A stretch of 64,000 bases of DNA from Thermocoleostomius sinensis A174 (lineage in GTDB: Bacteria > Cyanobacteriota > Cyanobacteriia > Elainellales > Elainellaceae): assembly GCF_026802175.1 (NCBI RefSeq), contig NZ_CP113797.1, positions 5,681,026 through 5,745,025 on the forward strand. Direction: 5' to 3'. How positions within the stretch are numbered: position 1 is the first letter of the stretch; each line of letters opens with the position of its first letter. Shown here one piece after another: positions 1,717 through 24,990 of this stretch. Below the pieces are notes generated by a model, which worked only from the letters and a program-made list of their open reading frames with translations, was not told the DNA's origin and ran no database searches. A program made the position numbers and the translations under genes.

Positions 1717-1754
1717 AGCCATGGAACCTAACAGCTTCCGCTAAGAAATGGTAC

Positions 1755-3227
1755 TCATCCCAAAATCAGCCCTGTTCGGGGTGGAATCTCCAAAAACAAG
1801 TTGTCGGCAGTCCAAAGAATCGAAGTGTGTTTTTCAGCGTCGGCATTGGTGCTATAGAGAATTTGGCTAGGCTGTGCATGTAAACGCATTCCAACGGTTT
1901 CCAGGTCGATGCGGGCTGGAATATCATCGGAGTTTACCGCCACAATCAATACATCTCCTTCCCAAAGCCGAGCAAAGACATACGCTAGACCTTCGGCTCC
2001 TAACAAGCGATATTCCCCAATACGCAGAGCCATGTGGGCATGACGTAAGCTGATTAACTGGCAATGGCACTCGAAAAGGTCTGTATTCCACTGGGCAGGA
2101 GGTGGAAAACTGCGCCGACAATCCGGATCAAGGGCCCCCTCCAGACCAACTTCATCGCCGTAATAAAGACTGGGTGCACCAGGAAAAGTCATCAGCAATA
2201 GGGTTGCTAGTTTAACACTGTTAATGTCGCCGCCTGCAAGGGTCAGCAACCGTGCTGTGTCATGGCTGGCTAAAAGATTGAGTTGAGTGAGTTGAATGTC
2301 CCAGGGATAGCGATGCAGCAACAGTTGAATCTTTTCCGCATAGGTGACGGCATCCATCGCTGGATAGGGATCATAATCGCGATCTTGCACCTGATCACGA
2401 ATCACCCGATCGCCTGCAGTATAAGCAATTGTGGCTCCGGCAAACCAGTAGTTCAGAACGCCATCAAACTGCGTACCGTCTAACCATTGTCGTGCATCTC
2501 GCCAAATTTCACCCACAATGTAGGCGTTGGGGTTGATGGCTTTCACCCGATCGCGAAATTCTTGCCAAAACCCCGGTTCTTTGATGCACATTGGTACATC
2601 CAGCCGCCAGCCGTCAATGCCTTGACGAATCCAATGCTCGGCTACTTGCATAATATATTCCCGCACAGCCGGATTAGCGTGGTTAAATTCTGGCAAAGCG
2701 CGGTTGTCTGCCCAGCCCTTATAGTTTGCCGGTCGATCGCCATCGTAGGGAGCCAGTGGCCAGCCTTCAATCTTAAACCAATCAATCCAGGGCGAATGGG
2801 GACCATTCTCCAAAATATCGTTAAAGAAGAAGAAACCGCGACTGGCATGGTTAAAGACGCCATCTAGTACAACCTTCATACCTCGCCAGTGGGCCGCTTC
2901 CAGCAGGCGATAGAAAGCAGTGTTGCCACCCAATAACGGATCGACCTGGTAATAATCCTGCGTGTGGTAGCGATGATTGCTGGCAGACTGAAAGATGGGT
3001 GTGAAGTAAATAGCAGTCACCCCCAAGTCTTGCAAATAGTCGAGTTTATCAATCACACCCCATAAATTGCCACCTTTGTAGCCCTGGGGGGTGGGTGGGG
3101 CCTCCCAAGCTTCTAAGGGTACCGTCTCTAGCTTGGGCATCAGGGGTTGCAACCCTCTGGCGAAACGATCGGGAAAGATTTGATAGAAAACAGCATGTTT
3201 CACCCAGTCTGGTGTGTGAATTGGCAT
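1755..3227 (-). CDS. Alpha-amylase family glycoside hydrolase (GH13)
   Basis: This 490-residue protein carries all four GH13 regions: DGVFNH (122-127), GWRLDVPM with the nucleophile Asp210, VGEIW with the acid/base Glu240, and LLASHDTAR with Asp323 as transition-state stabiliser. It begins PDWVKHAVFYQIFPDRFARG, as in cyclomaltodextrinase/neopullulanase-like enzymes, but lacks the N-terminal starch-binding domain many of those have. It should hydrolyse alpha-1,4 (possibly alpha-1,6) glucans, most likely glycogen-derived maltodextrin. No signal peptide is visible, so it is probably cytoplasmic. It stands as a single gene. The exact substrate cannot be read from sequence. Confidence 0.9.
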   Translation of the reverse strand: MPIHTPDWVKHAVFYQIFPDRFARGLQPLMPKLETVPLEAWEAPPTPQGYKGGNLWGVIDKLDYLQDLGVTAIYFTPIFQSASNHRYHTQDYYQVDPLLGGNTAFYRLLEAAHWRGMKVVLDGVFNHASRGFFFFNDILENGPHSPWIDWFKIEGWPLAPYDGDRPANYKGWADNRALPEFNHANPAVREYIMQVAEHWIRQGIDGWRLDVPMCIKEPGFWQEFRDRVKAINPNAYIVGEIWRDARQWLDGTQFDGVLNYWFAGATIAYTAGDRVIRDQVQDRDYDPYPAMDAVTYAEKIQLLLHRYPWDIQLTQLNLLASHDTARLLTLAGGDINSVKLATLLLMTFPGAPSLYYGDEVGLEGALDPDCRRSFPPPAQWNTDLFECHCQLISLRHAHMALRIGEYRLLGAEGLAYVFARLWEGDVLIVAVNSDDIPARIDLETVGMRLHAQPSQILYSTNADAEKHTSILWTADNLFLEIPPRTGLILG

Positions 3228-3887
3228 AACCCCTCTCTGTATTCAGTCCTCTCGGTTTTCCCGGCTGCCTACTTCGTAAGCTCGGCGTAGGGTCGCTTAG
3301 CATTTATCAACAATTGACATAGTGCAGCATCTCACAGCATCCGACAAGGCTCAAGTGGGAATTGATCACATTCTCTGTATTCAACTAGCCAGCCAGCGTT
3401 TTTTCTGACGGCTGCGATCGAAACTAGGGAAGAATTCCTCCTTTTGATTGGAACAATTCACGAGCTTTTGGTGTCTTACTATCCATCTTTTTTACATTGA
3501 TATCCTTTAAATAAAACGCTTTTTTGAATAAGAAAATAATGTTAAACAAGAGTTAAAAAATTGAATGTGACAGTTGTAAAACAGGCTATTTTTTTAGAAA
3601 AAATCAATTTCAAAACCTATAACTAAATTATGAGCAAATTACAGCAAAAGCACCTGTTCTTCTAAACTGCTTCTTTGATTTATTCTTCAAACAAAGAGCA
3701 TAAAAGAAGCGAAATCATTGCTCTATTGATCGGTTCAATCAGCGATTTATCTTTACGAACATGAGAGATAAATTGTGCTCGATCAGGGTGAAGTTAATAG
3801 ATTAATTGACAACTCATCCGTGTACAAATCAATGGCTAACTCAGCTTAGCCACTGTAATTCAGCACTCTTCAGGAAGGAAGGTATCT
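3228..3887. other. AT-rich intergenic region with an 8-bp inverted repeat
   Basis: This 660-bp AT-rich stretch separates the divergent amylase and beta-barrel-like genes. I see no gene in it. It contains a perfect inverted repeat, ATTTATCT at 3745-3752 and AGATAAAT at 3766-3773, separated by 13 nt and about 115 nt before the downstream ATG. The repeat could be an operator or part of a 5' leader. Confidence 0.4.
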
Positions 3888-4412
3888 ATGAAACGGTCTA
3901 TCAAAGTGATCGCTACAACTTCGATTGTTTCAGCAATGGCAGTAGGATCAATTTTGTTTTCTGCCGATCGCGCTTCTGCACAAGTCCGAGGGATGGAAGG
4001 CAGCTATTTAGGCGGTGGTGTATCGGCTGGCGTTACTAATGTTGATGAAGATGGATCGGTTTTAGGTGGTAATATTCAAGGGCGTTTAGATGCGCGAGAA
4101 TTGCCAGTATCGTTGCGTGGCGCATTCCTATTTAATGGAGATAATAGTGCCATTATGCCGATCGTTTCCTATGACGTTGGAGTGGCTCCCAATACAAACC
4201 TGTATGTGGGTGGAGGCTACTCTTTTGTATTAGGTAGAGGAGAGTCGTCGTTGTTAGGAAACCAAGACGCGCCAGTGGTAACACTGGGGGTGGAAACGGC
4301 AGTGAATCCGAATGTTGTGCTGTATGGCGATGCCAAGTTAGGGATTGATGCTTACAAAAATAGCTCTGGCTCGGCAGTCAGCTTGCAATTAGGGGCAGCC
4401 TACCGATTCTAG
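3888..4412 (+). CDS. Small exported beta-barrel-like protein (probable outer membrane)
   Basis: The 174-residue product starts MKRSIKVIATTSIVSAMAVG and has a signal peptide that probably ends at ADRASA-Q (about residues 28-32). The mature part alternates polar and hydrophobic residues with many glycines (GGGVSAGV, NLYVGGGYSF, VVLYGDAKLG) and ends in LQLGAAYRF. A terminal aromatic residue after alternating strands is typical of small outer-membrane beta-barrels. A GGAAGG ribosome site lies just before the ATG. Function is unknown; porin-like or OmpA-barrel-like are both possible. Confidence 0.65.
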   Translation: MKRSIKVIATTSIVSAMAVGSILFSADRASAQVRGMEGSYLGGGVSAGVTNVDEDGSVLGGNIQGRLDARELPVSLRGAFLFNGDNSAIMPIVSYDVGVAPNTNLYVGGGYSFVLGRGESSLLGNQDAPVVTLGVETAVNPNVVLYGDAKLGIDAYKNSSGSAVSLQLGAAYRF

Positions 4413-4433
4413 TTGGATTGGTTGGATCGATTG

Positions 4434-4454
4434 GGACGATCAACTCGATCGTCC
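4434..4454 (+). terminator. Perfect 8-bp hairpin downstream of the beta-barrel-like gene
   Basis: GGACGATC (4434-4441) and GATCGTCC (4447-4454) form a perfect stem with a 5-nt loop, 22 nt after the stop codon of the preceding gene. No T-run follows, so this is a weak terminator candidate or an mRNA 3'-end stabiliser. Confidence 0.35.
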
Positions 4455-4645
4455 TGTCAAATCAGGGGGGAGGTCCTGGAACATGACGTTGCTAGAGTTG
4501 AGTTCTCATCCTCCCTTCTTTTCTAGTTAGAAAAACCTGTCTAACCCTGATGAGCCACAAAATTCTCAACACAAGTCTCTAAAATAGGAAGTATTCAGTA
4601 TTTGTGACTGGGTTCGTTACTGCTAGAGACTAGAGATATTGCTTT

Positions 4646-6115
4646 ATGTTTGAAGCCCTTGCCGATCGTCTGGAAGGAGCCTGGAAAAAACTCCGGGGTC
4701 AAGACAAAATTTCGGAGTCCAATGTTCAAGAGGCGTTACGAGAAGTTCGTCGGGCCCTATTAGAGGCAGATGCTAACCTCCAGGTTGTCAAAGATTTTGT
4801 TGCTGAAGTGCAGAAGCAGGCACTTGGCGCAGAAGTGATTGCAGGGGTCAATCCGGGACAGCAGTTCATCAAAATTGTTTATGATGAACTAGTGTCAGTG
4901 ATGGGAGACACCAATGTTCCGCTGGCTCATGCCGATGTAGCCCCGACGATCGTACTGATGGCAGGGCTTCAGGGGACGGGTAAAACCACAGCTACCGCGA
5001 AACTGGCTCTGCATTTGCGTAAACAGGAACGCAGTGCGATGCTGGTGGCAACAGATGTTTACCGTCCAGCGGCGATCGATCAGTTGGTAACGTTAGGGAA
5101 GCAGATCGGTGTGCCCGTCTTTGAGATGGGGAGTGATGCCGATCCAGTGGAAATTGCTCGGCAGGGCGTTGAACAAGCCAAAGCTGACGGCATCGATACG
5201 GTCATCATTGACACAGCAGGTCGCTTACAAATTGACCAAGCCATGATGGCCGAATTGGCTCGCATCAAACAAACCGTGCAGCCCCACGAGGTGTTGCTGG
5301 TGGTAGATGCCATGACCGGACAGGAAGCCGCGAACTTGACACGCACCTTTCATGAAGAAATTGGTATCACTGGGGCCATTCTTACCAAAATGGACGGCGA
5401 CACTCGCGGTGGCGCTGCCCTATCAGTACGTCGGATCTCGGGTCAGCCCATTAAGTTCATTGGGGTTGGCGAAAAAGTAGAGGCACTACAGCCGTTCTAT
5501 CCCGATCGCATGGCCTCACGAATTTTGGGCATGGGCGATGTGCTCACCCTGGTAGAAAAAGCTCAGGAAGAAGTCGATCTAGCGGATGCTGAAAAGCTAC
5601 AAGAGAAAATTCTGACTGCCAAGTTTGACTTCGCCGACTTTCTGAAGCAAACGCGATTGATGAAAAACATGGGATCGCTAGCGGGAATTGTAAAGCTGAT
5701 TCCAGGCATGGGCGGCAAAATTTCCGACGAACAGTTGCAACAAGGCGAGGCGCAACTGAAACGGGTGGAAGCCATGATTAACTCGATGACCCCCGAAGAA
5801 CGCAGAGAACCAGAGTTGCTGTCGGGGTCTCCTAGTCGCCGTCGTCGCATTGCCAAAGGGTCGGGGTATTCCCTGGACGATGTCAGTAAACTGGTGAAAG
5901 ATTTCCAGAAAATGCGATCGCTGATGCAGCAGATGGGTCAGGGTGGATTGCCCGGGATGGGAATGCCCGGATTGGGAGGGATGTTTGGTGGCGGTGCGCC
6001 CGCTGGTGGAATGCCCAGTCCTCCCCCCCCCGGTTGGCGCGGCTACCCCGGTGCAATGTCGCCAGGAAAGAAGAAGAAAAAGGACAAGAAAAAGAAAGGC
6101 TTTGGCACGCTGTAA
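4646..6115 (+). CDS. ffh: Signal recognition particle protein Ffh (SRP54)
   Basis: This SRP GTPase binds SRP RNA and signal sequences of nascent membrane proteins and docks to FtsY. The N domain (1-95) is followed by a G domain with GLQGTGKT (107-114), TDVYRPAAIDQL, DTAGR (189-193) and TKMDGD (247-252). The methionine-rich M domain starts near 330 and includes the RNA-binding stretch around SGSPSRRRRIAKGSG. The last 56 residues form a low-complexity Gly/Met/Pro tail ending in a lysine run. Length (489) is normal for cyanobacteria. The next gene downstream is a small Ala-rich protein; no rpsP is seen nearby. Confidence 0.97.
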   Translation: MFEALADRLEGAWKKLRGQDKISESNVQEALREVRRALLEADANLQVVKDFVAEVQKQALGAEVIAGVNPGQQFIKIVYDELVSVMGDTNVPLAHADVAPTIVLMAGLQGTGKTTATAKLALHLRKQERSAMLVATDVYRPAAIDQLVTLGKQIGVPVFEMGSDADPVEIARQGVEQAKADGIDTVIIDTAGRLQIDQAMMAELARIKQTVQPHEVLLVVDAMTGQEAANLTRTFHEEIGITGAILTKMDGDTRGGAALSVRRISGQPIKFIGVGEKVEALQPFYPDRMASRILGMGDVLTLVEKAQEEVDLADAEKLQEKILTAKFDFADFLKQTRLMKNMGSLAGIVKLIPGMGGKISDEQLQQGEAQLKRVEAMINSMTPEERREPELLSGSPSRRRRIAKGSGYSLDDVSKLVKDFQKMRSLMQQMGQGGLPGMGMPGLGGMFGGGAPAGGMPSPPPPGWRGYPGAMSPGKKKKKDKKKKGFGTL

Positions 6116-6393
6116 TAGCTATAACAAAGGCTAAAGGTGAAGGATAGAAAGTGAGTAAATATTCCGAGGGTTGATGATGTTCTACCGGGATATCTATCCA
6201 ATTTTTGAACCTTGAGCCTGTATCATTTGCCCCTTTTTCAAGCCTTTCTCTTTTCTCCTTTTATCCTTTCATTCCCAGGTCCATATCGTGCTAGGCTCGT
6301 ATCTATAGGATCAATAACAGTCTCAGGCTTGCCTTGCCGTTGGCGAGGTGTTCGTGAGGTTGGAAGGAGAGGTTTTTAGGAGCGATCGCAACA

Positions 6394-6876
6394 ATGGTAT
6401 TAAAGTTTTTAGGATTGGGTAAGAAATCCGAATATTTTCTAGAGGCGGAACCACAACCGTCCAACGGTTCTGAACCTGCAACCGCAGAAAAACCCAAGAC
6501 GGAATCCGTTGCTACAACAACCCCTGAAGCGGTCAAGGACGCTGTGTCTTCAACACTGGAAACAGCAGCGTCTGAAGCAAAATCAGCCCTAGAGGCCGCT
6601 GCCGCCGTAGCCACTTCTGCCACAGAGGCTGTCGCCTCTAAAGCAACAAAAACTACAAAGAAATCGAAAAAATCGCAGAAAGCAAAGGTGGAATCAGTCA
6701 CTGTTGAGATTGATGAAACAACCCAAGCAGAGGCGAAAGCTGAAATTAAAGCAATTCCAGCTTCTAGTAACACCTTTGCGACCGATCATCTCATTCCGAA
6801 GAACACCCCTCGCCGCCGTCCGGGCCCCAGCCTAGATATGTTTAAGGACATGGCACGACAGATGAACTCGAAGTAG
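6394..6876 (+). CDS. Ala/Lys-rich conserved cyanobacterial hypothetical protein
   Basis: This 160-residue protein begins MVLKFLGLGKKSEYFLEAE, continues through a long Ala/Thr/Glu/Lys-rich low-complexity stretch (about 25-125) and ends in a conserved-looking basic segment, PKNTPRRRPGPSLDMFKDMA. The middle resembles an unstructured or helical linker. I do not recognise a functional family. A HIP1 site (6382-6389) sits directly before the start codon, and a strong intrinsic terminator follows the gene, so it appears to be the last gene of its transcript. Confidence 0.7.
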   Translation: MVLKFLGLGKKSEYFLEAEPQPSNGSEPATAEKPKTESVATTTPEAVKDAVSSTLETAASEAKSALEAAAAVATSATEAVASKATKTTKKSKKSQKAKVESVTVEIDETTQAEAKAEIKAIPASSNTFATDHLIPKNTPRRRPGPSLDMFKDMARQMNSK

Positions 6877-6944
6877 GTCAACGGATATATCCATCGATCG
6901 ACGGTTATCTCGTTTATTTCTACTTATTTCTACTAAGACAACCT

Positions 6945-6991
6945 AAAGGAAAGGATGAAGAGTCTATGCCTCTTTAGTCCTTTCCTTTTTT
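6945..6991 (+). terminator. Intrinsic terminator after the Ala-rich gene
   Basis: A long stem pairs AAAGGAAAGGA...GAAGAG (6945-6962) with CTCTTT...TCCTTTCCTTT (to about 6987) around a short loop near TCTATGC, followed immediately by a T-run. It is 69 nt after the stop codon at 6876. Confidence 0.85.
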
Positions 6992-7095
6992 GTCTTGCTT
7001 TTTTGTAGTGAGTAGTTTGTATTGAGTTTGATTATTCATCAACCCGGGTATTGGTTATGACCTACTCCCCGGCGTTCCTGAAGCAGATAGGAATT

Positions 7096-7131
7096 GCCCT
7101 CATCCCCAACCCTTCTCCCTAGGGTGAGGGC
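7096..7131. repeat. Dispersed hairpin-type intergenic repeat
   Basis: GCCCTCA (7096-7102) and TGAGGGC (7125-7131) flank a C-rich then AGGG core (CCTTCTCCCTAGGG). This matches the kind of short C-rich/G-rich palindromic repeat scattered between cyanobacterial genes. The rest of 6992-7235 contains further C-rich fragments (CCTACTCCCTATTCCC-like) and no visible gene. Confidence 0.5.
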
Positions 7132-7235
7132 TGCAAGAAGCTCCAGCACGAGAATCATCTTCTTTCAGCAACGCCTGACCTACCGCCTACTCCCTATTCC
7201 CTGACCTATCCCTCAGCTAGTCTATCGTCAGCTTC

Positions 7236-7553
7236 TTAATCTTCGACTTCAAGTTGGGCGACGATCATGGCACAGATCGCAAAAGCAGACACTAGCGGCA
7301 TGGGTGACTGTAATAGATAAGTAAACAGTGCCGACATAACACTAATGCCGATCGCCGTCACACACCATTTCCGTTCATCCGGGCTTAAGCCTTGTTTGGC
7401 TTTAATCAGGCGTAGTGCCTGGTTAGGAATTGGCAACGGCATCACAGCATTAGGCGGGAACGCCCAGTATTCCTTGCGCTCGCGCACAAATAGATCTGTC
7501 CAACCGTTTTCCTGACACCAATCCTCAATCCAGGTGTAGCAATAGTGATTCAT
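7236..7553 (-). CDS. Conserved cyanobacterial hypothetical membrane protein
   Basis: The 105-residue product has a soluble aromatic-rich N-terminal half (CYTWIEDWCQENGWTDLF, then EYWAFPPNAVMPLPIP) and a hydrophobic C-terminal part (about 68-100) that can form one or two membrane helices, ending AQLEVED. The N-terminal half looks like a small conserved cyanobacterial family, but I cannot name it. It is divergent from the small membrane protein at 7865, and the shared upstream region holds a perfect palindrome at 7629-7647. Confidence 0.6.
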   Translation of the reverse strand: MNHYCYTWIEDWCQENGWTDLFVRERKEYWAFPPNAVMPLPIPNQALRLIKAKQGLSPDERKWCVTAIGISVMSALFTYLLQSPMPLVSAFAICAMIVAQLEVED

Positions 7554-7628
7554 AACTCAAGGCAGAAGAATGGACTACAACTCAAAAACAATAGAACCTA
7601 GACCCAACAACCCTCAAAACGAACAAGC

Positions 7629-7647
7629 TCTACAGAGGCTCTGTAGA
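7629..7647. promoter_or_regulatory. 19-bp palindrome in a divergent promoter region, possible operator
   Basis: TCTACAGAGGCTCTGTAGA is a perfect inverted repeat with 9-bp arms around one central base. The arms are too close to form an ordinary RNA hairpin, so it looks more like a dimeric regulator site. It lies 76 bp upstream of the minus-strand gene (start 7553) and 218 bp upstream of the plus-strand gene at 7865. The rest of the 311-bp gap (7554-7864) shows no gene. Confidence 0.4.
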
Positions 7648-7864
7648 ACTAGCAAAACCATGAGTTGATTTAAGAAAACTTCCTACTGTTCGTAGGCTAA
7701 CAAACTCAACCGATGACAACCATCTATGGCAATCAAAGTTTACTCAAACCAATCTTCTGGTTACAGAGCGTAAAGCACTTGTGACAAAACTTAGGGCTAG
7801 GACAGTTAATAGCTACGTTATTGTCTTTCTAGCGCCTGATTGCAGCCTCCATAGATAGATTTTC

Positions 7865-8212
7865 ATGAATGAGCTTGCCAGAAAAGATTTGTTCACTTGT
7901 TTAGGAGCCTGGCTAGCGTTGGAGCTTGTCTGTTTTGGGCTGCTGCCAGGGATTGGGTTAAATCGATCGAACGTTAATATCGAGCCTTGGTTTATCGCCA
8001 GTATTCCCTTAGGAATTGGTGGAGCGTTTCTGTTGGCAAGCAGTACTCACTTCCTCGAAGGCGATCGACCAGAGACGTGGTGGCAAAAGCGCTTGACTCA
8101 AGTGTCGGCTGTGCTAGTTAGCTGGGCCGGGTTGTTGGGCATCAGCTTTCCGTTACTAGTGATGAGTTTGCTGATTTTTATTGAACTGTTTGCGCAATTA
8201 CGGGGTTCATGA
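7865..8212 (+). CDS. Small hypothetical integral membrane protein
   Basis: The 115-residue product has about three hydrophobic segments: residues 11-31 (CLGAWLALELVCFGLLPGIG), 41-60 and 80-112. Positive charges between them (DRPETWWQKR) suggest a cytoplasmic loop. No family motif is recognised. It starts at ATG 7867-type position 7865 after CATAGATAGATTTTC, without a strong ribosome site. Function unknown. Confidence 0.55.
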   Translation: MNELARKDLFTCLGAWLALELVCFGLLPGIGLNRSNVNIEPWFIASIPLGIGGAFLLASSTHFLEGDRPETWWQKRLTQVSAVLVSWAGLLGISFPLLVMSLLIFIELFAQLRGS

Positions 8213-8274
8213 AATTCTCGTTGCAGGCGGGCAGTGCCGACCTTGCTTGGAACCTACCCTCGATTCAAGCGCAA

Positions 8275-9663
8275 TCAAAATTCAGCTTCGCGGGGTGCAC
8301 GCGGAAAGGGAATGACATCGCGGATGTTCCCCATTCCGGTCATAAACTGCACCAGCCGATCGAACCCTAAGCCAAACCCGGCATGGGGTACGGTTCCATA
8401 ACGGCGCAAATCTAGATACCACCACAGAGTTTCGATCGGCAAGCCACATTCCTGCACCCGTCGTTCTAACACCTCTAAGCGCTCTTCTCGCTGCGAGCCG
8501 CCTACCAATTCCCCAATTTTAGGAGCCAAAATATCCATCGCCCGTACAGTTTTGCCATCGTCATTTAAGCGCATATAGAAAGCTTTGATAGCGGCTGGAT
8601 AGTCGGTGACAATCACAGGTTTCTTAAACAGATCTTCCGCCAAATAGCGCTCGTGTTCTGACTGCAAATCCGCTCCCCAGGACACGGGATACTCAAAGGA
8701 TTTGTCGGCTTTTTCCAGCAGGGCGATCGCATCAGTGTAAGTAATGCGCTCAAACTGGCTATTAATGATATTTTCAGCCGTTGCTAGCACTGAATCATCA
8801 ATGCGGAGATTGAAGAATTCCATATCTTCCGGGCAGGTTTCCAGCACATGCTTGAAGACATGTTTAAGGAAAGCTTCCGCCAAGTCCATGTTGCCCTCTA
8901 GTTCACAGAAAGCCATCTCCGGTTCTACCATCCAAAATTCGGCCAAGTGGCGCGATGTGTTGGAGTTCTCAGCACGGAAGGTGGGGCCAAAGGTATAGAC
9001 ATTTGTGAAGGCCATCGCCATAATTTCGGCTTCCAGTTGTCCGCTTACTGTTAGATAAGCCCGTCGCCCAAAAAAGTCCTCACTAAAATCAATTTCGCCA
9101 GCGTCTGTACGGGGCAATTTTTCAAAGTCTAACCCTGTTACTGTAAACAGTTCCCCGGCTCCTTCGGCATCACTGGCCGTAATTAGCGGTGTATGTACCC
9201 ATAGGAATCCCCGCTCTTGAAAGAAATTGTGAATGGCCGTCGCGCAGGCATTCCGCACCCGAAACACAGCCCCCAAGGTATTAGTGCGGGGTCGTAGATG
9301 TCCGATCGTTCGCAAAAACTCAAAGGAATGGCGCTTCTTTTGTAGTGGATAGGTTTCGGCGTCGGCTTCACCATACACTTTAATAGTATGGGCCTTCAGT
9401 TCAATCCGTTGGCCCTTAGCGGGCGACTCAACCAACACACCGCTGATCTCGACTGATGCGCCAGTGTTAGCCTGCTTCATCGTCTCGGCATAGTTGGGCA
9501 AATCGTCATTCACCACCACTTGCAGCCCTGCCAGCGAGGAGCCATCGTTGACTTCTACAAAGCTAAAGCTCTTTTGGTCGCGTTTTGTGCGCACCCAGCC
9601 TTGAATGGTGACAGGTTCGTTGGGTTGACCGTAGCGAAGCAGATCCAGAATGCGTCGAGTCAT
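8275..9663 (-). CDS. asnS: Asparaginyl-tRNA synthetase
   Basis: AsnRS charges tRNA-Asn with asparagine. The protein has an N-terminal OB-fold anticodon domain ([19 protein letters not shown]) and a class II catalytic core with [30 protein letters not shown] (motif 2) and the C-terminal [10 protein letters not shown] (motif 3). The open frame extends 22 codons further upstream, but [12 protein letters not shown] at 9663 fits the family N-terminus and gives 462 residues, the usual length. A tRNA-Asn gene occurs elsewhere in this window (31263). Confidence 0.95.
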
Positions 9664-9761
9664 TGTCATGAGCGTCAGGGTGAGCAGGCGAAATTTGGTC
9701 GTCGATTGTACTGCCTCTGAGTGTAGCAAGGACTGACTCGATCGATGAGGGTTGGGGTGGC

Positions 9762-10556
9762 TTATCCTTGTCCGATGACCACCTGCACAACATCTTCCCA
9801 GTTCAGACGCAGTTGAAAATGAGCATCACCACCGCTAATGGCCAGTTCTACCCACCCGTGACTACCTACTAACGCCAAAGGTTCACCGGGAGAGACATCG
9901 CTGTAGGTACTACAACCGGGCACTGTGCGTTTACCAACCAGCACCGACCAGGTTTTACCATCAACATACTCACCTGGAATATTAGTGATAACGTTGCCAA
10001 AGCGATCGATATGCTGAATATTGCCCCGAAAGCCGTGTGCGGTGGGGGTACAACTGGCAATTGGACATTGAGCCAGATTGACAACGTCGATCGGATCTCC
10101 CAGTTTGGTGATAGGAACGCCACTGGCCAAATGGGCGGCAACTGGCGCAAAGATATCCCGCCCGTGGAACGTGTGGCTAGGGTCTGGGACACGCCAATAA
10201 TCGCGGTTGGTGAGTTCAACGCTGTGAATAACGGACTGTTGTGCCAGTAGGCCGGTGAAAATGCCGTTATCCGGACCCACCAAAAACCCCGTTTCCAATT
10301 CGAGGGCGATCGCCCGGCGAGCACTGCCTACGCCTGGATCAACGACCGCCACATGTACCGTTCCAACTGGAAAGAACGGATAAGCACTGAGCAAATTAAA
10401 CTGAGCCACCTGAATATTTTGGGGAGGCACCTCATGCGTTAAATCAATGACCTGCACATGGGGATTAATTTGGGCAATCACTCCTTTCATAACCCCAACA
10501 TAGGTGTCGTTCCAGCCAAAATCGGTTAGCAGTGTCAGTAGGGAAGTTGCAGTCAT
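9762..10556 (-). CDS. SAM hydrolase / SAM hydroxide adenosyltransferase (DUF62 family)
   Basis: The family splits S-adenosylmethionine to adenosine and methionine using hydroxide, in the fold shared with fluorinase/chlorinase. Visible signatures are [17 protein letters not shown] at the N-terminus, [18 protein letters not shown] and [14 protein letters not shown]. The longer open frame starts at 10643, but [14 protein letters not shown] at 10556 matches the family start and gives 264 residues. The gene is next to asnS on the same strand (about 100 bp apart). Halide specificity would need a small extra loop, which I do not see, so hydrolase is the better guess. Confidence 0.88.
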
Positions 10557-18963: not shown

Positions 18964-19794
18964 TTAAATTTTTTTCCATGCTTTGGGTTGCTGAAAATGG
19001 TAGATATCTTGAATCACCTGCACCCAACCAGTGGTGAGAGCTTCCAAGAACCGATCGCCTTTTTCTTTGGTGGCCACTGTTGGATCACCCAAAACTCCGC
19101 TTTGGCTTAAATCTCGCGTTGTCCAGGCAAAGGGAAGCTGACCCTCCATGCTCAACACACTAGACTGAGGGAGTTCTTGCGGATACTCTGTAGCGGCTTG
19201 TTCCATGCGCACTTGATCCGGCAAAATCGATAGCAGCACACTGGTTTCCGCATCGCCTGCATGGATTCCCAGTTCTGCCTCTTTAGAGGTCAGCAAGTCG
19301 ATCGGCAGGTTGGGAACGCGCCAAACAAACAGCGGAAACACCATGAAGTCTTCATAGCGTTGATGCAGGTCCCGCGCTACAATTTCCATGATTTGTGGTT
19401 GCCCGCCGTGGCCGTTAACCAACGCAAACTTGCGGAACCCGGCCCGATACAGACTTTCCCCAACTTCCATCAAGGTGGCAATTAACGTGTGCGCACTCAG
19501 TGTTACCGTGCCCGGAAAGTGCCAATGTTCGTTGGACTTGCCGTAGCACAGGGTTGGCAGCACGTAGGCGGGAATGTCGGGTTCCAGGCGCTCTGTGGCC
19601 TTTCCCATAACAGCGGTTGCAATGGCCGCATCAACCACCAACGGCAGATGGGGTCCATGCTGCTCGATCGTCCCCACAGGCTGAAGCAACACCACGTTAT
19701 CTTTGTTCGGCATCTGCTGGATCTCAGTCCAAGTGAGATAGGGAAAGAACCGATCGGGAGGAATAAAGCTATGCATACCGTCTTCTACAACCAT
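18964..19794 (-). CDS. Creatininase-family amidohydrolase
   Basis: The creatininase family comprises metal-dependent amidohydrolases acting on small cyclic or formylamino compounds. Visible motifs: LLQPVGTIEQHGPHLPLVVD (metal-binding His and Asp), NEHWHFPGT, LVNGHGG and IHAGDAETS (metal-binding Glu). The length of 276 is normal. It sits directly upstream of the CNT transporter, which suggests a substrate derived from a nucleoside or nucleobase rather than creatinine; this is inference. Start at 19794 is the longest frame; a second Met at 19776 is possible. Confidence 0.88.
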   Translation of the reverse strand: MVVEDGMHSFIPPDRFFPYLTWTEIQQMPNKDNVVLLQPVGTIEQHGPHLPLVVDAAIATAVMGKATERLEPDIPAYVLPTLCYGKSNEHWHFPGTVTLSAHTLIATLMEVGESLYRAGFRKFALVNGHGGQPQIMEIVARDLHQRYEDFMVFPLFVWRVPNLPIDLLTSKEAELGIHAGDAETSVLLSILPDQVRMEQAATEYPQELPQSSVLSMEGQLPFAWTTRDLSQSGVLGDPTVATKEKGDRFLEALTTGWVQVIQDIYHFQQPKAWKKI

Positions 19795-22160: not shown

Positions 22161-24146
22161 CTAGAAGCCCAGTTCCAAGGTAAAACTTCGTAGGCTGCCG
22201 CGATCTTCACCAGCTTTATCAATCACCTCTACGGTCCAGCTACCTTTGGGGCTTTTGCCCCGAAGACTGACTAGGCCTGGTGTGTTGGCTTCATCGTAAA
22301 CCGTATTGATATTACGAGTACCCCGCCCTCGGCGGTTGTGCAACGCCACAGAAATGACATTGGTTTCTTCGGGAGGCTTCAGCAGCACCACCAGATCGCG
22401 CAGATCACTGTGGTGGATATCTACAAACACTTTGATGGATTGGAGAGGATTGGTTACGGGCACCATCATTGACAGCGTGGCAGGCTGCAAGTAGCGGATG
22501 GGCATCTCTTGAATGGCACGATACATGCGGACAGGTGTGGACTGCGTGGGAATGGCCGACTCGATCGCTTGTCGGGCATTCAGCCGTCCATAGCCATAAA
22601 ATGGACTACGACCATCCGCGTTATATTGACCGTCTGTTTCATCAATTTTGTCGCTGCTTTGTTTCAAAATCTCGCGCACCTGATCCCAACGTAAATCGGG
22701 GTTTTGTGCTAAAACCAGTGCTGCCACGCCTGCTGCTCCTGGACACGCACTCGACGTACCCCCGAAGGAGTTGGTGTAGTTGCCTGCCTCGTCTCCGGCC
22801 GCCGCATTGCCGGAATTGTAGCCGGCTGCTCCCGATCGATCGGTTGTCCAAATACCCGGAGTTAAACTCTGCTCGCCATTGTTGCTGGGAAAGGCACACC
22901 AAATTGCATTGCCAAAGTCGCTGTAGGCGCTGCGTTTACCCAGGTCGTTACAAGCAGCCACAGCAATTACCTTGTCATAACTGGCATAACCGTCGTTGTC
23001 TACGCTTTCGTTGCCGTTGCCTGCTGCCCAGCAAATCACACAGCCTTTACCATTGCGTCCTTGACTGACGGCATAGTCGATCGCCAAGCGGGTACTGTCG
23101 GGCAAGGGGACAATTTCATTGTGCAGCGGGTCATCTGGGTTCCACCAGTCGCCGTCGGTCGGGCCCCAACTGCACGAAATCACATCGGCTCCGTTACGTG
23201 CCGCCCAGTAGAAAGCATCGGCTTCTGCCTGAGACCCCAAGGCAGAGGCTAGCCGAATCGGCATGAGTTTAGCTCTGGGGGCCACACCAGACGCCCCAAA
23301 ATTGCCATTGGCACAGGCAACGCCCGCGCAGGCGGTTCCGTGATTTTCGTTGCCCCTAGGACGGGGATCATTGGTACGACGGGTCGCGTCACGAGGAGCC
23401 ACAATTTTGCCAGACGATCGAAATTCTTCGTGGTTGATATCAATTCCCGTATCGATCACCGCGATCGTCATGCCCTCGCCTTGAGTAATAGACCAAGCCG
23501 CTTCGACATTGGCGCTGGCTTCGATGAGGGTATCATTGAGCGTCGTGGTTTTCAAATGCCACTGTTGTGGAAAAGCTTGTCGCCGCCGACTTTCACGAAT
23601 CAATTCTGGGTGGCACAATTGCACCAACTCCTCTTGCAACAACCGCTCGGCAATATCAAACACCGCCAGTCCGGTTCCTTCAGGAGCACTGACAAAGTAG
23701 GCATTGAGCGCATAGTCGATCGATCGCTTGATTATTAAGTTGTAGCGTTGCAATAGTGCTTGCTGCTGCTCTGGTTCAACCTCGTCATGAAACTGAATGA
23801 AAAAATTTTCCGTATACAGCACCGGAACTTGTGCCGCTGTCACCAGTAAGCGCCCGGCAAAGCGAATTTCAGGTTCAGCTTTCAAAACCGATCGCGCCGT
23901 GTCTCGCAAGGAACTGTCGGTCTGAGGAACTCTGGCTTGCAGCACTTCAACGCCCGCTTCGCGAAATTCGCTGACCTGTCGAAATTCGCTCAGAAGCGCA
24001 CGGGTTTGGGGCGACACAGGGGCAACTTCGTAGGGACGATCGAGCATCAAGGGTTTGCGGTTATAGGTACGGACTGCCACAAACTGATTGCTCACTGTTA
24101 ACTCATAGGATGGGCCGCCTTTGCCGCCGTACTGCACTCTGACCAT
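22161..24146 (-). CDS. prcA: Calcium-dependent subtilisin-type protease PrcA with P domain
   Basis: A 661-residue S8 family protease. Residues 1-210 form a prodomain-like region (RFAGRLLVTA, then VLYTENFFIQFHDEVEPEQ). The catalytic core has IAVIDTGID (Asp232), NENHGTACAG (His269), AAGNGN (Asn377) and GGTSSACPG (Ser465). Residues from about 545 form a P/homoB domain (VFVDIHHSDLRDLVVLLKPP). Length and layout match the Anabaena calcium-dependent protease PrcA. No signal peptide is visible, so it may be cytoplasmic or exported non-classically. AGGAGAT lies 7 nt before the ATG. A propeptide-like protein gene lies divergently upstream. Confidence 0.92.
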   Translation of the reverse strand: MVRVQYGGKGGPSYELTVSNQFVAVRTYNRKPLMLDRPYEVAPVSPQTRALLSEFRQVSEFREAGVEVLQARVPQTDSSLRDTARSVLKAEPEIRFAGRLLVTAAQVPVLYTENFFIQFHDEVEPEQQQALLQRYNLIIKRSIDYALNAYFVSAPEGTGLAVFDIAERLLQEELVQLCHPELIRESRRRQAFPQQWHLKTTTLNDTLIEASANVEAAWSITQGEGMTIAVIDTGIDINHEEFRSSGKIVAPRDATRRTNDPRPRGNENHGTACAGVACANGNFGASGVAPRAKLMPIRLASALGSQAEADAFYWAARNGADVISCSWGPTDGDWWNPDDPLHNEIVPLPDSTRLAIDYAVSQGRNGKGCVICWAAGNGNESVDNDGYASYDKVIAVAACNDLGKRSAYSDFGNAIWCAFPSNNGEQSLTPGIWTTDRSGAAGYNSGNAAAGDEAGNYTNSFGGTSSACPGAAGVAALVLAQNPDLRWDQVREILKQSSDKIDETDGQYNADGRSPFYGYGRLNARQAIESAIPTQSTPVRMYRAIQEMPIRYLQPATLSMMVPVTNPLQSIKVFVDIHHSDLRDLVVLLKPPEETNVISVALHNRRGRGTRNINTVYDEANTPGLVSLRGKSPKGSWTVEVIDKAGEDRGSLRSFTLELGF

Positions 24147-24251
24147 ATCTTTATCTCCTGGGCTTGGGGACTGAAAGCGGGAATCTTCTTGTGTTATACC
24201 TGCGTTGAAGCCGCGTCTATGAAAAGCGTTGGCGAAATTTAATAGATGAAA

Positions 24252-24290
24252 GAGGAAATGGGTGTTGGGGGTTGGGAGTTAGAGGTTGGG
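24252..24290. repeat. Short G-rich repeat patch between prcA and the propeptide-like gene
   Basis: ATGGGTGTTGGGGGTTGGG, then AGTTAGAGGTTGGGGGTTG lies in the 262-bp divergent promoter region of prcA and the propeptide-like gene. Apart from this patch the region shows no gene. Confidence 0.55.
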
Positions 24291-24408
24291 GGTTGCCGTG
24301 AGCGCAGCCAAAGGGTGGATGAGGAGATGACAAGATAACGTTATCTTCAGAATAGGAGGGGCAAGCAAGGATCGCAGTGATTGGAGTGATTGGAATGATG
24401 AGTCGCGA

Positions 24409-24990
24409 ATGAAAAGGTTGCTGAGGCCGATCGCTTGGCTATTGATTGCAAGCGTTTCTTTCTGGATAGGGGGGGGTGCCGTGACGATAGAAAATTTTGC
24501 TGACTATCCACAGCAGGTACAGGTTGGAACCGCGCCGATCTATACCTATGTGCAGCAACCGGGCTATTATGCAGTACACTACGCGGCGATGCCAGAGTTA
24601 TTGCCGGAAAGGGTGACGTCAGATGCCGTAGCGGTGATGGAGGAAGAGGCGATCGCGGTATTTGCAGGTAGTCCCACTGCACGCAAGGCTGCCACAAATG
24701 GGATAGTGACTCCGGTGTATGCGCTAAAATCAGGTGGCTCGATCGCAGTTCCCACTGGACAAGTCTTCATCCGGTTTGCAGAGGCGATCCCGGCCGCATC
24801 CCGCCAAGATGCCATTCAAACGGCTGGCTATGAGATTGTTGAGATTCCTGAGTATGCTCCTCACACCGCGTGGGTACGATCACGATCGGGGAAGGTTGCC
24901 GAGGCGCTGGAGGGTTTGTCGCGATTGAGTGCCATCGCGGATGTAGAACACATAGAACCGCAGATGTTGACGCAACGACAGTTTAAGTAA
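24409..24990 (+). CDS. Membrane-anchored stand-alone protein resembling the PrcA propeptide
   Basis: The 193-residue product has an N-terminal hydrophobic segment (about 7-27). Residues 81-193 align by eye with the prodomain of the adjacent PrcA (about 92-188): FAG then VTPVY against FAGRLLV and VPVLY; TGQVFIRFAEAIPAAS against TENFFIQFHDEVEPEQ; IPEYAPHTAWV against IDYALNAYFV; HIEPQMLTQR against CHPELIRESR. It has no catalytic domain. It could be an inhibitor or folding helper of PrcA or of an exported subtilase. Its gene is divergent from prcA, 262 bp away. Function is inference. Confidence 0.65.
   Translation: MKRLLRPIAWLLIASVSFWIGGGAVTIENFADYPQQVQVGTAPIYTYVQQPGYYAVHYAAMPELLPERVTSDAVAVMEEEAIAVFAGSPTARKAATNGIVTPVYALKSGGSIAVPTGQVFIRFAEAIPAASRQDAIQTAGYEIVEIPEYAPHTAWVRSRSGKVAEALEGLSRLSAIADVEHIEPQMLTQRQFK

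Follow-up and report, generated by a model that had tools for sequence, protein, structure and literature searches.

Two described systems, Plasmodium SUB1-ProM and Aeromonas sobria ORF2, appear to be the closest analogues of the protein considered here, which is encoded beside the gene of the calcium-dependent protease PrcA in Thermocoleostomius sinensis A174 and is referred to below as the partner. In the accessible excerpts of the SUB1-ProM study, SUB1-ProM is reported to inhibit SUB1, and the known stand-alone propeptide-like members are described as being without significant sequence similarity (PMC6993865). ORF2 acts as both chaperone and inhibitor (IC50 84 nM) of the kexin-family protease ASP, and its C-terminal Lys sits at the ASP catalytic centre, according to the excerpts of PMC5638518. 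In the window, by which we mean the whole stretch of 64,000 nucleotides that was analysed, the partner gene and prcA are divergent neighbours (Table 1). From the homology, the predicted fold and the genomic pairing presented below we infer, with a probability of roughly three in four, that the partner acts in trans as a product-mimicking inhibitor of PrcA; the homology and fold, taken alone, we regard as very probable indeed.

Table 1. Features of the partner/prcA locus, in coordinates of the window
Feature	Coordinates	Strand	Basis or remark
Partner gene, encoding a propeptide-like protein of 193 aa that stands alone and is proposed to inhibit PrcA	24409..24990	+	ATG start
Hydrophobic, signal-peptide-like N-terminal stretch of the partner, residues 1-27	24409..24489	+	By eye
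N-terminal domain of the partner, residues 28-108, conserved YPQQxxVG...PGYYAxHY	24490..24732	+	Alignment of partners, low-confidence model
Subtilase-propeptide-like domain of the partner, residues 111-193, predicted beta-alpha-beta-beta-alpha-beta	24739..24987	+	Profiles, model, fold matches
C-terminal R190-Q-F-K193 (R-x-x-K tail, P4/P1 equivalents), predicted to lie in the PrcA active site	24976..24987	+	
Intergenic region of the divergent genes, 262 bp	24147..24408	no strand	
PrcA, kexin/furin-like subtilase, 661 aa (calcium-dependent protease of the literature)	22161..24146	-	Pfam, solved-structure matches
Own prodomain of PrcA, residues 1-189; predicted autocleavage after R189, between SRRR and QAFPQQWHL	23580..24146	-	Inferred cleavage
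PrcA catalytic domain, residues 223-520	22587..23480	-	Pfam
PrcA P-domain, residues 569-658	22173..22442	-	Pfam

PrcA gave Pfam matches to Peptidase_S8 (4.8e-48) and P_proprotein (9.9e-11), and its nearest solved relatives were kexin (1.1e-29) and furin (9e-28), with an S8 domain followed by a P-domain. Because the match to kexin and furin begins at PrcA residue 191, the first ~189 residues are taken to be a prodomain, and R189, which lies just before the stretch matching mature kexin, is the likely maturation site. Searches of the partner, a 193-aa ORF, against Pfam and NCBIfam returned zero domains at E ≤ 1, in agreement with the first-pass annotation, which had seen no protease domain in it. 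The genome showed no second copy of the partner gene at E ≤ 10, and a simple scan of the 262 bp between the two genes found no sigma-70-like promoter. Another subtilase of the same genome (L001, G000:C1:104121-104321), in a frame of 727 residues, carries a clear Fervidolysin_NPro-like prodomain, which is the only match to that family in the genome. A gene with a near-identical protein start, which we take to be creatininase-like, occurs both in the window (18964-19794, minus strand) and in locus L140 (9785-10573, minus strand); it lies about 2.5 kb or less from the prcA pair in both genomes, on opposite sides, which may reflect chance or a wider neighbourhood.

The first-pass annotation had aligned residues 81-193 of the partner with the PrcA prodomain. 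Profile comparison, which it had named as a check, upheld this alignment in the same register for residues ~111-193, and on this evidence that region is homologous to the end of the PrcA prodomain. Specifically, hhalign of 24 partners against 22 PrcA prodomains gave an E value of 1.6e-6 and a probability of 90% over 83 ungapped columns, which start at residue 111 and place partner residues 111-193 on PrcA residues 107-189; a scripted repeat of the profile comparison scored 48.6, as against a maximum of 23.4 in 200 column shuffles and 12.0 for the reversed profile. Profiles built only from stand-alone members matched PrcA itself in eight genomes (G577, G573, G569, G617, G603, G605, G611 and G598), at genome-wide E values of 5.7e-5 to 0.006. 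When 11 loci were scanned in six translated frames each, the partner profile found the PrcA prodomain in 10 (i-E 1.6e-3 to 1.6e-8), every match starting at PrcA residue 102-114; in the eleventh, L124, PrcA is broken. In the 217 genomes searched with the first partner profile, 63 of which have PrcA, none of the PrcA prodomains was hit at E ≤ 0.01. A longer, earlier alignment of 51 partners against 55 prodomains (E 4.9e-5, probability 40%) hints at profile similarity past the C-terminal domain; the first ~80 residues of the partner were not convincingly aligned to the PrcA prodomain.

Pairwise BLASTP of the partner against PrcA was not significant (19% over 78 aa, E 0.46), so that the earlier alignment was not proved by this single pair but is by the family profiles. 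Against solved structures, phmmer with the partner found nothing and the partner profile found one irrelevant match (E 1.3). None of the 24 partners matched Inhibitor_I9 or ORF_2_N (PF18492) at E ≤ 1. Among the PrcA prodomains, ORF_2_N was matched more often than any other Pfam family, though weakly (4 of 22, best E 5.4e-4; one match had 17.8 bits, the cut-off being 29.2), and Fervidolysin_NPro-like (PF22148) weakly matched two of the 24 partners (best E 0.0074) and one of the 22 prodomains (E 0.07), one of these matches having 13.9 bits, under the curated cut-off of 21. The partner and the PrcA prodomain are alike in being homologous by profile, in sharing one register and in having a basic residue where the prodomain is expected to be cut, but they differ in that no protease domain follows the partner, that the partner has E-P-Q where the prodomain has H-P-E, and that it has R at P4 whereas PrcA has R at P3. 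On our reading the partner is a stand-alone relative of the PrcA prodomain and probably an old duplicate.

The structural model of the partner, built from a two-row alignment, had a mean pLDDT of 49.7. Confidence was moderate only at residues ~116-184, with means of 60-86 over blocks of ten residues between 121 and 180, and was low in the tail; block means in the N-terminal domain were 26-48. Its secondary-structure elements are ordered E114-123, H129-138, E141-145, E153-158, H163-174 and E179-187. The best 15 VIA-align rows for this model were all prodomains of subtilases or convertases (Z 8.1-9.5, rmsd 1.8-2.9, 60-78 residues aligned), for example 9fie_B (Z 9.5, rmsd 2.8, 78 aligned) and 1spb_P (Z 9.4, rmsd 2.2, 68 aligned); row 16 was the unrelated 6tpi_B (Z 8.0), and POIA1 (1itp) stood at row 50 (Z 6.6). 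Foldseek placed the subtilisin prosegments 1spb and 1scj on top (E 8.9e-3 and 1.8e-2, neither below 0.001) and A. sobria ORF2 (3wqb_B) at rank 21. The VIA-align superposition on the PC1/3 prodomain (9fie_B, 9fid_F) ends at K193 of the partner and at residue 110, which we take to be the PC1/3 cleavage site. From these models the C-terminal domain of the partner is predicted to belong to the subtilase-propeptide fold class.

Of the structure predictions that the first-pass annotation had suggested for both proteins, that of the partner came out propeptide-like in its C-terminal domain and that of the PrcA prodomain was weak. The model of the latter was poor, yet had the same order of elements as the partner; propeptides led its VIA-align list, with Z up to 6.7 (POIA1, Z 5.9), unrelated chains ranked first in Foldseek, and the fold evidence for the PrcA prodomain itself is only suggestive. 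Ferredoxin-like folds are common, and RNA-binding domains appear lower in both the Foldseek and the VIA-align lists of the partner. Together with the Z of only 6.7 for the PrcA prodomain model, this would fit a chance match of a common fold in a protein that is encoded at this locus but has another, unrelated function. We consider such a coincidence very unlikely, given that the profile homology passes its shuffle control in one gapless register and that the two families have a common basic end residue and are strictly paired.

Furin and kexin prefer Arg at P1 and P4, an R-x-x-R/K tail is what a kexin/furin-type cleft binds, and Anabaena PrcA has Arg/Lys specificity. Taking the ninth residue after the P of E-P-Q (partner) or of H-P-E (PrcA) as the P1 equivalent, we found that all 67 PrcA rows carrying the H-P-E anchor have R there and that all 59 partner rows have R or K; the P4 equivalent of the partner was basic in all rows but one (58/59, the exception being L016). 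The earlier count, made without L135-L140, was 53/53 at P1 and 52/53 at P4, and in that 53-row set R and K together accounted for 7.2% of the 150 residues that come before. The 59 rows represent 58 distinct sequences, the partner of a named example, Nostoc foliaceum (L003), being identical to that of G475 (L046). The rows come from 39 of the 56 genomes with a partner in the G024 family, from all 7 in the window's family and from all 12 in the G304 genus, and they include L003; not counted were seven duplicate loci, the broken L124, and L141, which shares its genome with L106.

The partner chain stops exactly on the P1 equivalent in 25 of the 59 rows, including that of the window, and goes 1-3 residues past it in a further 30; longer extensions, of 4, 7, 16 and 75 residues, occur in one row each (4/59). 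Since the chain ends at the P1 equivalent or 1-3 residues past it in most rows, little would be left for the protease to cut. Judging from the sequences and models, the tail of the partner most likely occupies the active site of PrcA. Like the prodomain, the C-terminal domain of the partner would bind against the catalytic domain of PrcA, placing the R-x-x-R/K tail in the substrate cleft with its last basic residue in S1. The tail would thereby mimic the product of PrcA's own maturation cut, and the partner would block mature PrcA until the partner is slowly degraded.

The pair recurs across cyanobacterial genomes. In 295 genomes from three clades, 85 had PrcA and 73 had a near-full-length partner, and all 73 of these partners had PrcA on the same contig in divergent orientation. 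In the family of G024 (217 genomes), PrcA was found in 63 at E ≤ 1e-20, one of them (G451) a fragment with a stop, and there were 56 partner matches, namely 54 near full length, the truncated copy of G513 and the debris of G502. Each of the 56 shared its contig with PrcA, ran on the other strand and had its 5' end facing that of PrcA; the two matches were 85-815 bp apart in 54 genomes and 5.0 and 7.7 kb apart in the other two. The window's family (36 genomes) had nine with PrcA and seven with the partner, and the genus of G304 (42 genomes) 13 with PrcA and 12 with a near-full-length partner. In a sample of the phylum (386 genomes), 23 matched the PrcA prodomain at E ≤ 0.001, 11 of them at 54% identity or more; with spurious matches set apart, the partner was present in 10 genomes, all among those 11. 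The counts describe genomes of shared ancestry, which makes formal p-values meaningless.

Several matches were rejected as partners. The match in G044 (4.9e-4) had no PrcA match in the 12 kb examined and a response-regulator-like start and was absent with the profile; those in G128 (E 0.0028) and G029 (E 0.0075), outside the known clades, were taken as chance; those in G571 and G574 belong to different subtilases with about 30% identity to PrcA in the aligned part; and that in G573 lies in PrcA itself. In G584 (L141), a member of the window's family, a CRISPR-type array parts the two genes by ~8 kb, linkage and divergent orientation being kept. The array, from 2154 and within 1745-9956, has ~94 copies of a ~36-nt repeat, spaced 69-80 nt start to start in the copies shown.

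Copies in three genomes were left out of the near-full-length count. The partner is split over two frames in G595 (L124 3540-4379), where PrcA persists only as a fragment; it is truncated in G513 (L132 3941-6518), where PrcA has a stop at about codon 329; and it consists of two short pieces in G502 (L131 3668-3878), where the adjoining PrcA frame is uninterrupted. Both genes of the pair are thus damaged together in two cases, G595 and G513. The strict linkage seen in all three families, together with these two cases of joint damage, is evidence for a functional pair, and because both genes stay together in several cyanobacterial groups the partner is probably the dedicated inhibitor of PrcA, kept beside prcA to act in trans. 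The first-pass annotation had staked its reading on structural similarity and on recurrence of the pair in related genomes, and neither test went against it: the C-terminal domain has a predicted fold in common with solved subtilase propeptides, and the pair does recur.

Broken copies in G502, G513 and G595, and the lack of the gene in other genomes with PrcA, would also be expected if the partner were a decaying, functionless remnant of a duplicated prcA. However, dN/dS of the partner was 0.17-0.37 in every one of 12 related genome pairs (drawn, with overlap, from 15 genomes), as compared with 0.07-0.19 for PrcA in the same 12 pairs, indicating that the partner is under purifying selection but changing faster than PrcA. 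In addition, positions of the partner are invariant across three families, it never occurred near full length without PrcA in the 295 genomes, and the product of the neighbouring gene in Anabaena has been detected, as given in the excerpts of PMC4390845. Decay is in our judgement the least credible of the alternatives.

PrcA can persist without the partner, for 12 of the 85 PrcA genomes have no near-full-length one, some perhaps owing to assembly gaps (in the drafts of G499 and G505 the contig ends ~480 bp and ~1.5 kb upstream of PrcA, respectively, and in G451 PrcA is itself a fragment). Ten of the 12 (G125, G470, G476, G492, G499, G502, G505, G573, G571 and G602) keep an uninterrupted PrcA frame of at least 660 residues. 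This persistence bears on the main rival of our proposal, in which the partner would be an ORF2-like folding chaperone supplied to PrcA in trans, any inhibition being a by-product. Like ORF2, which is both chaperone and inhibitor in the excerpts of PMC5638518, the partner has a basic C-terminus and is encoded beside a kexin-type protease; ORF_2_N matched weakly in 4 of 22 PrcA prodomains, and Foldseek listed the solved ORF2 chain 3wqb_B for the partner model. However, each of the 22 aligned PrcA orthologues has a prodomain of its own, so that none would be needed in trans. PrcA frames stay uninterrupted in most PrcA genomes lacking a near-full-length partner, and prcA was reportedly expressed in E. 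coli, to go by the title of the 1991 cloning paper. A chaperone is therefore rather unlikely, and the other alternatives (tethering, decay, chance) are less likely still.

The first-pass annotation had called the partner membrane-anchored and PrcA devoid of a signal peptide. In line with the latter, all 22 aligned PrcA N-termini begin MVxVxYGG and show no leader (starts were set by homology, some frames being open further upstream). A membrane anchor, in contrast, applies at most to some members and is not a family trait. By eye, N-termini are signal-like in the window, L119 and L122 and have a lipobox-like Cys in L105 (MSGC) and L109 (LTGC), whereas L107, L021, L022 and L116, all beside PrcA, appear leaderless. 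In the window itself the true start is uncertain, either the ATG at 24409 or a GTG at 24481, which stands behind a G-rich run and from which the product would have no leader; the open frame also reaches 26 codons further upstream than the annotated ATG (24331-24408).

In Anabaena PCC 7120, all1380 and alr1381 (PrcA) are contiguous and divergent and both products were detected outside the cells: All1380, labelled 'no similarity', is in the exoproteome list for nitrate as well as ammonium, and Alr1381 in that for nitrate (excerpts of PMC4390845). By gene position only, All1380 is likely the partner. Presence outside the cell may reflect lysis, since the same exoproteome list includes RuBisCO and a ribosomal protein (PMC4390845, in excerpt). 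The excerpts of PMC3610870 list alr1381/prcA with futABC among iron-acclimation genes; no recognisable futABC neighbour was found beside prcA in six further loci.

The signal- or lipobox-like N-termini of the window, L105, L109, L119 and L122 and the joint detection of both products in the Anabaena exoproteome (PMC4390845, in excerpt) could mean that the partner exports or tethers the signal-less PrcA to the envelope, its propeptide-like domain serving only as a binding handle. We find this quite unlikely, for the partners that look leaderless occur beside PrcA as well, and a substrate-like R-x-x-R/K tail would be unnecessary for such a role. For inhibition in trans, the same N-termini raise the point that partner and PrcA may never meet, exported- or lipidated-looking partners facing a leaderless PrcA. 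One doubtful scenario is that leaderless PrcA gets out by lysis or in vesicles, acting as an extracellular kexin-type protease, and that an exported or lipid-anchored partner guards the surface of the producing cells or filament against it in an immunity-like manner. The partner would then be, within the literature searched, the first prokaryotic stand-alone propeptide inhibitor for a protease with its own prodomain.

No earlier report of a PrcA/partner pair was found among the matches listed in one open-access literature collection. If the partner is an inhibitor as proposed, it would supply a regulator for PrcA, a protease cloned in the 1991 publication, and assign a function to an unannotated cyanobacterial family that likely includes All1380. 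Stand-alone propeptide inhibitors, of which the excerpts of PMC6993865 give eukaryotic cases, would thereby be carried into bacteria.

By analogy, we propose that the partner works like a protein of the I9 type or the ORF2 type. As described in the excerpts of PMC6993865, SUB1-ProM is likewise a stand-alone propeptide-like protein, encoded at a conserved locus beside subtilase genes, and its protease has a propeptide of its own; unlike the partner, it is eukaryotic and lies in an array of genes in the same orientation. Inhibition by SUB1-ProM was measured, whereas that by the partner would follow from comparison, and the length of the SUB1-ProM tail varies between orthologues (PMC6993865, in excerpt), whereas the P1 equivalent of the partner is basic in all 59 rows. 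The first-pass annotation had named POIA1 and the yeast proteinase B inhibitor as precedents; ORF2, the nearest bacterial one, was missing there. Together with Arabidopsis SPI-1 and Toxoplasma MIC5, POIA1 and the yeast protein are stand-alone propeptide-like inhibitors or mimics, in the accessible text of PMC6993865 all eukaryotic. The POIA1 chain, of 77 residues, is without the extra N-terminal domain of the partner. ORF2 resembles the partner in being bacterial, in lying beside the gene of a kexin-family subtilase, in its basic C-terminus and in its place in the Foldseek list. However, the excerpts of PMC5638518 put its gene just downstream of asp, whereas the partner gene and prcA are divergent, and call ASP propeptide-deficient and in need of ORF2 to mature. 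With no ORF_2_N match among the 24 partners and a prodomain in PrcA itself, the partner does not appear to belong to the ORF2 family, and it is because PrcA keeps its own prodomain that the PrcA/partner case is distinct from that of ORF2.
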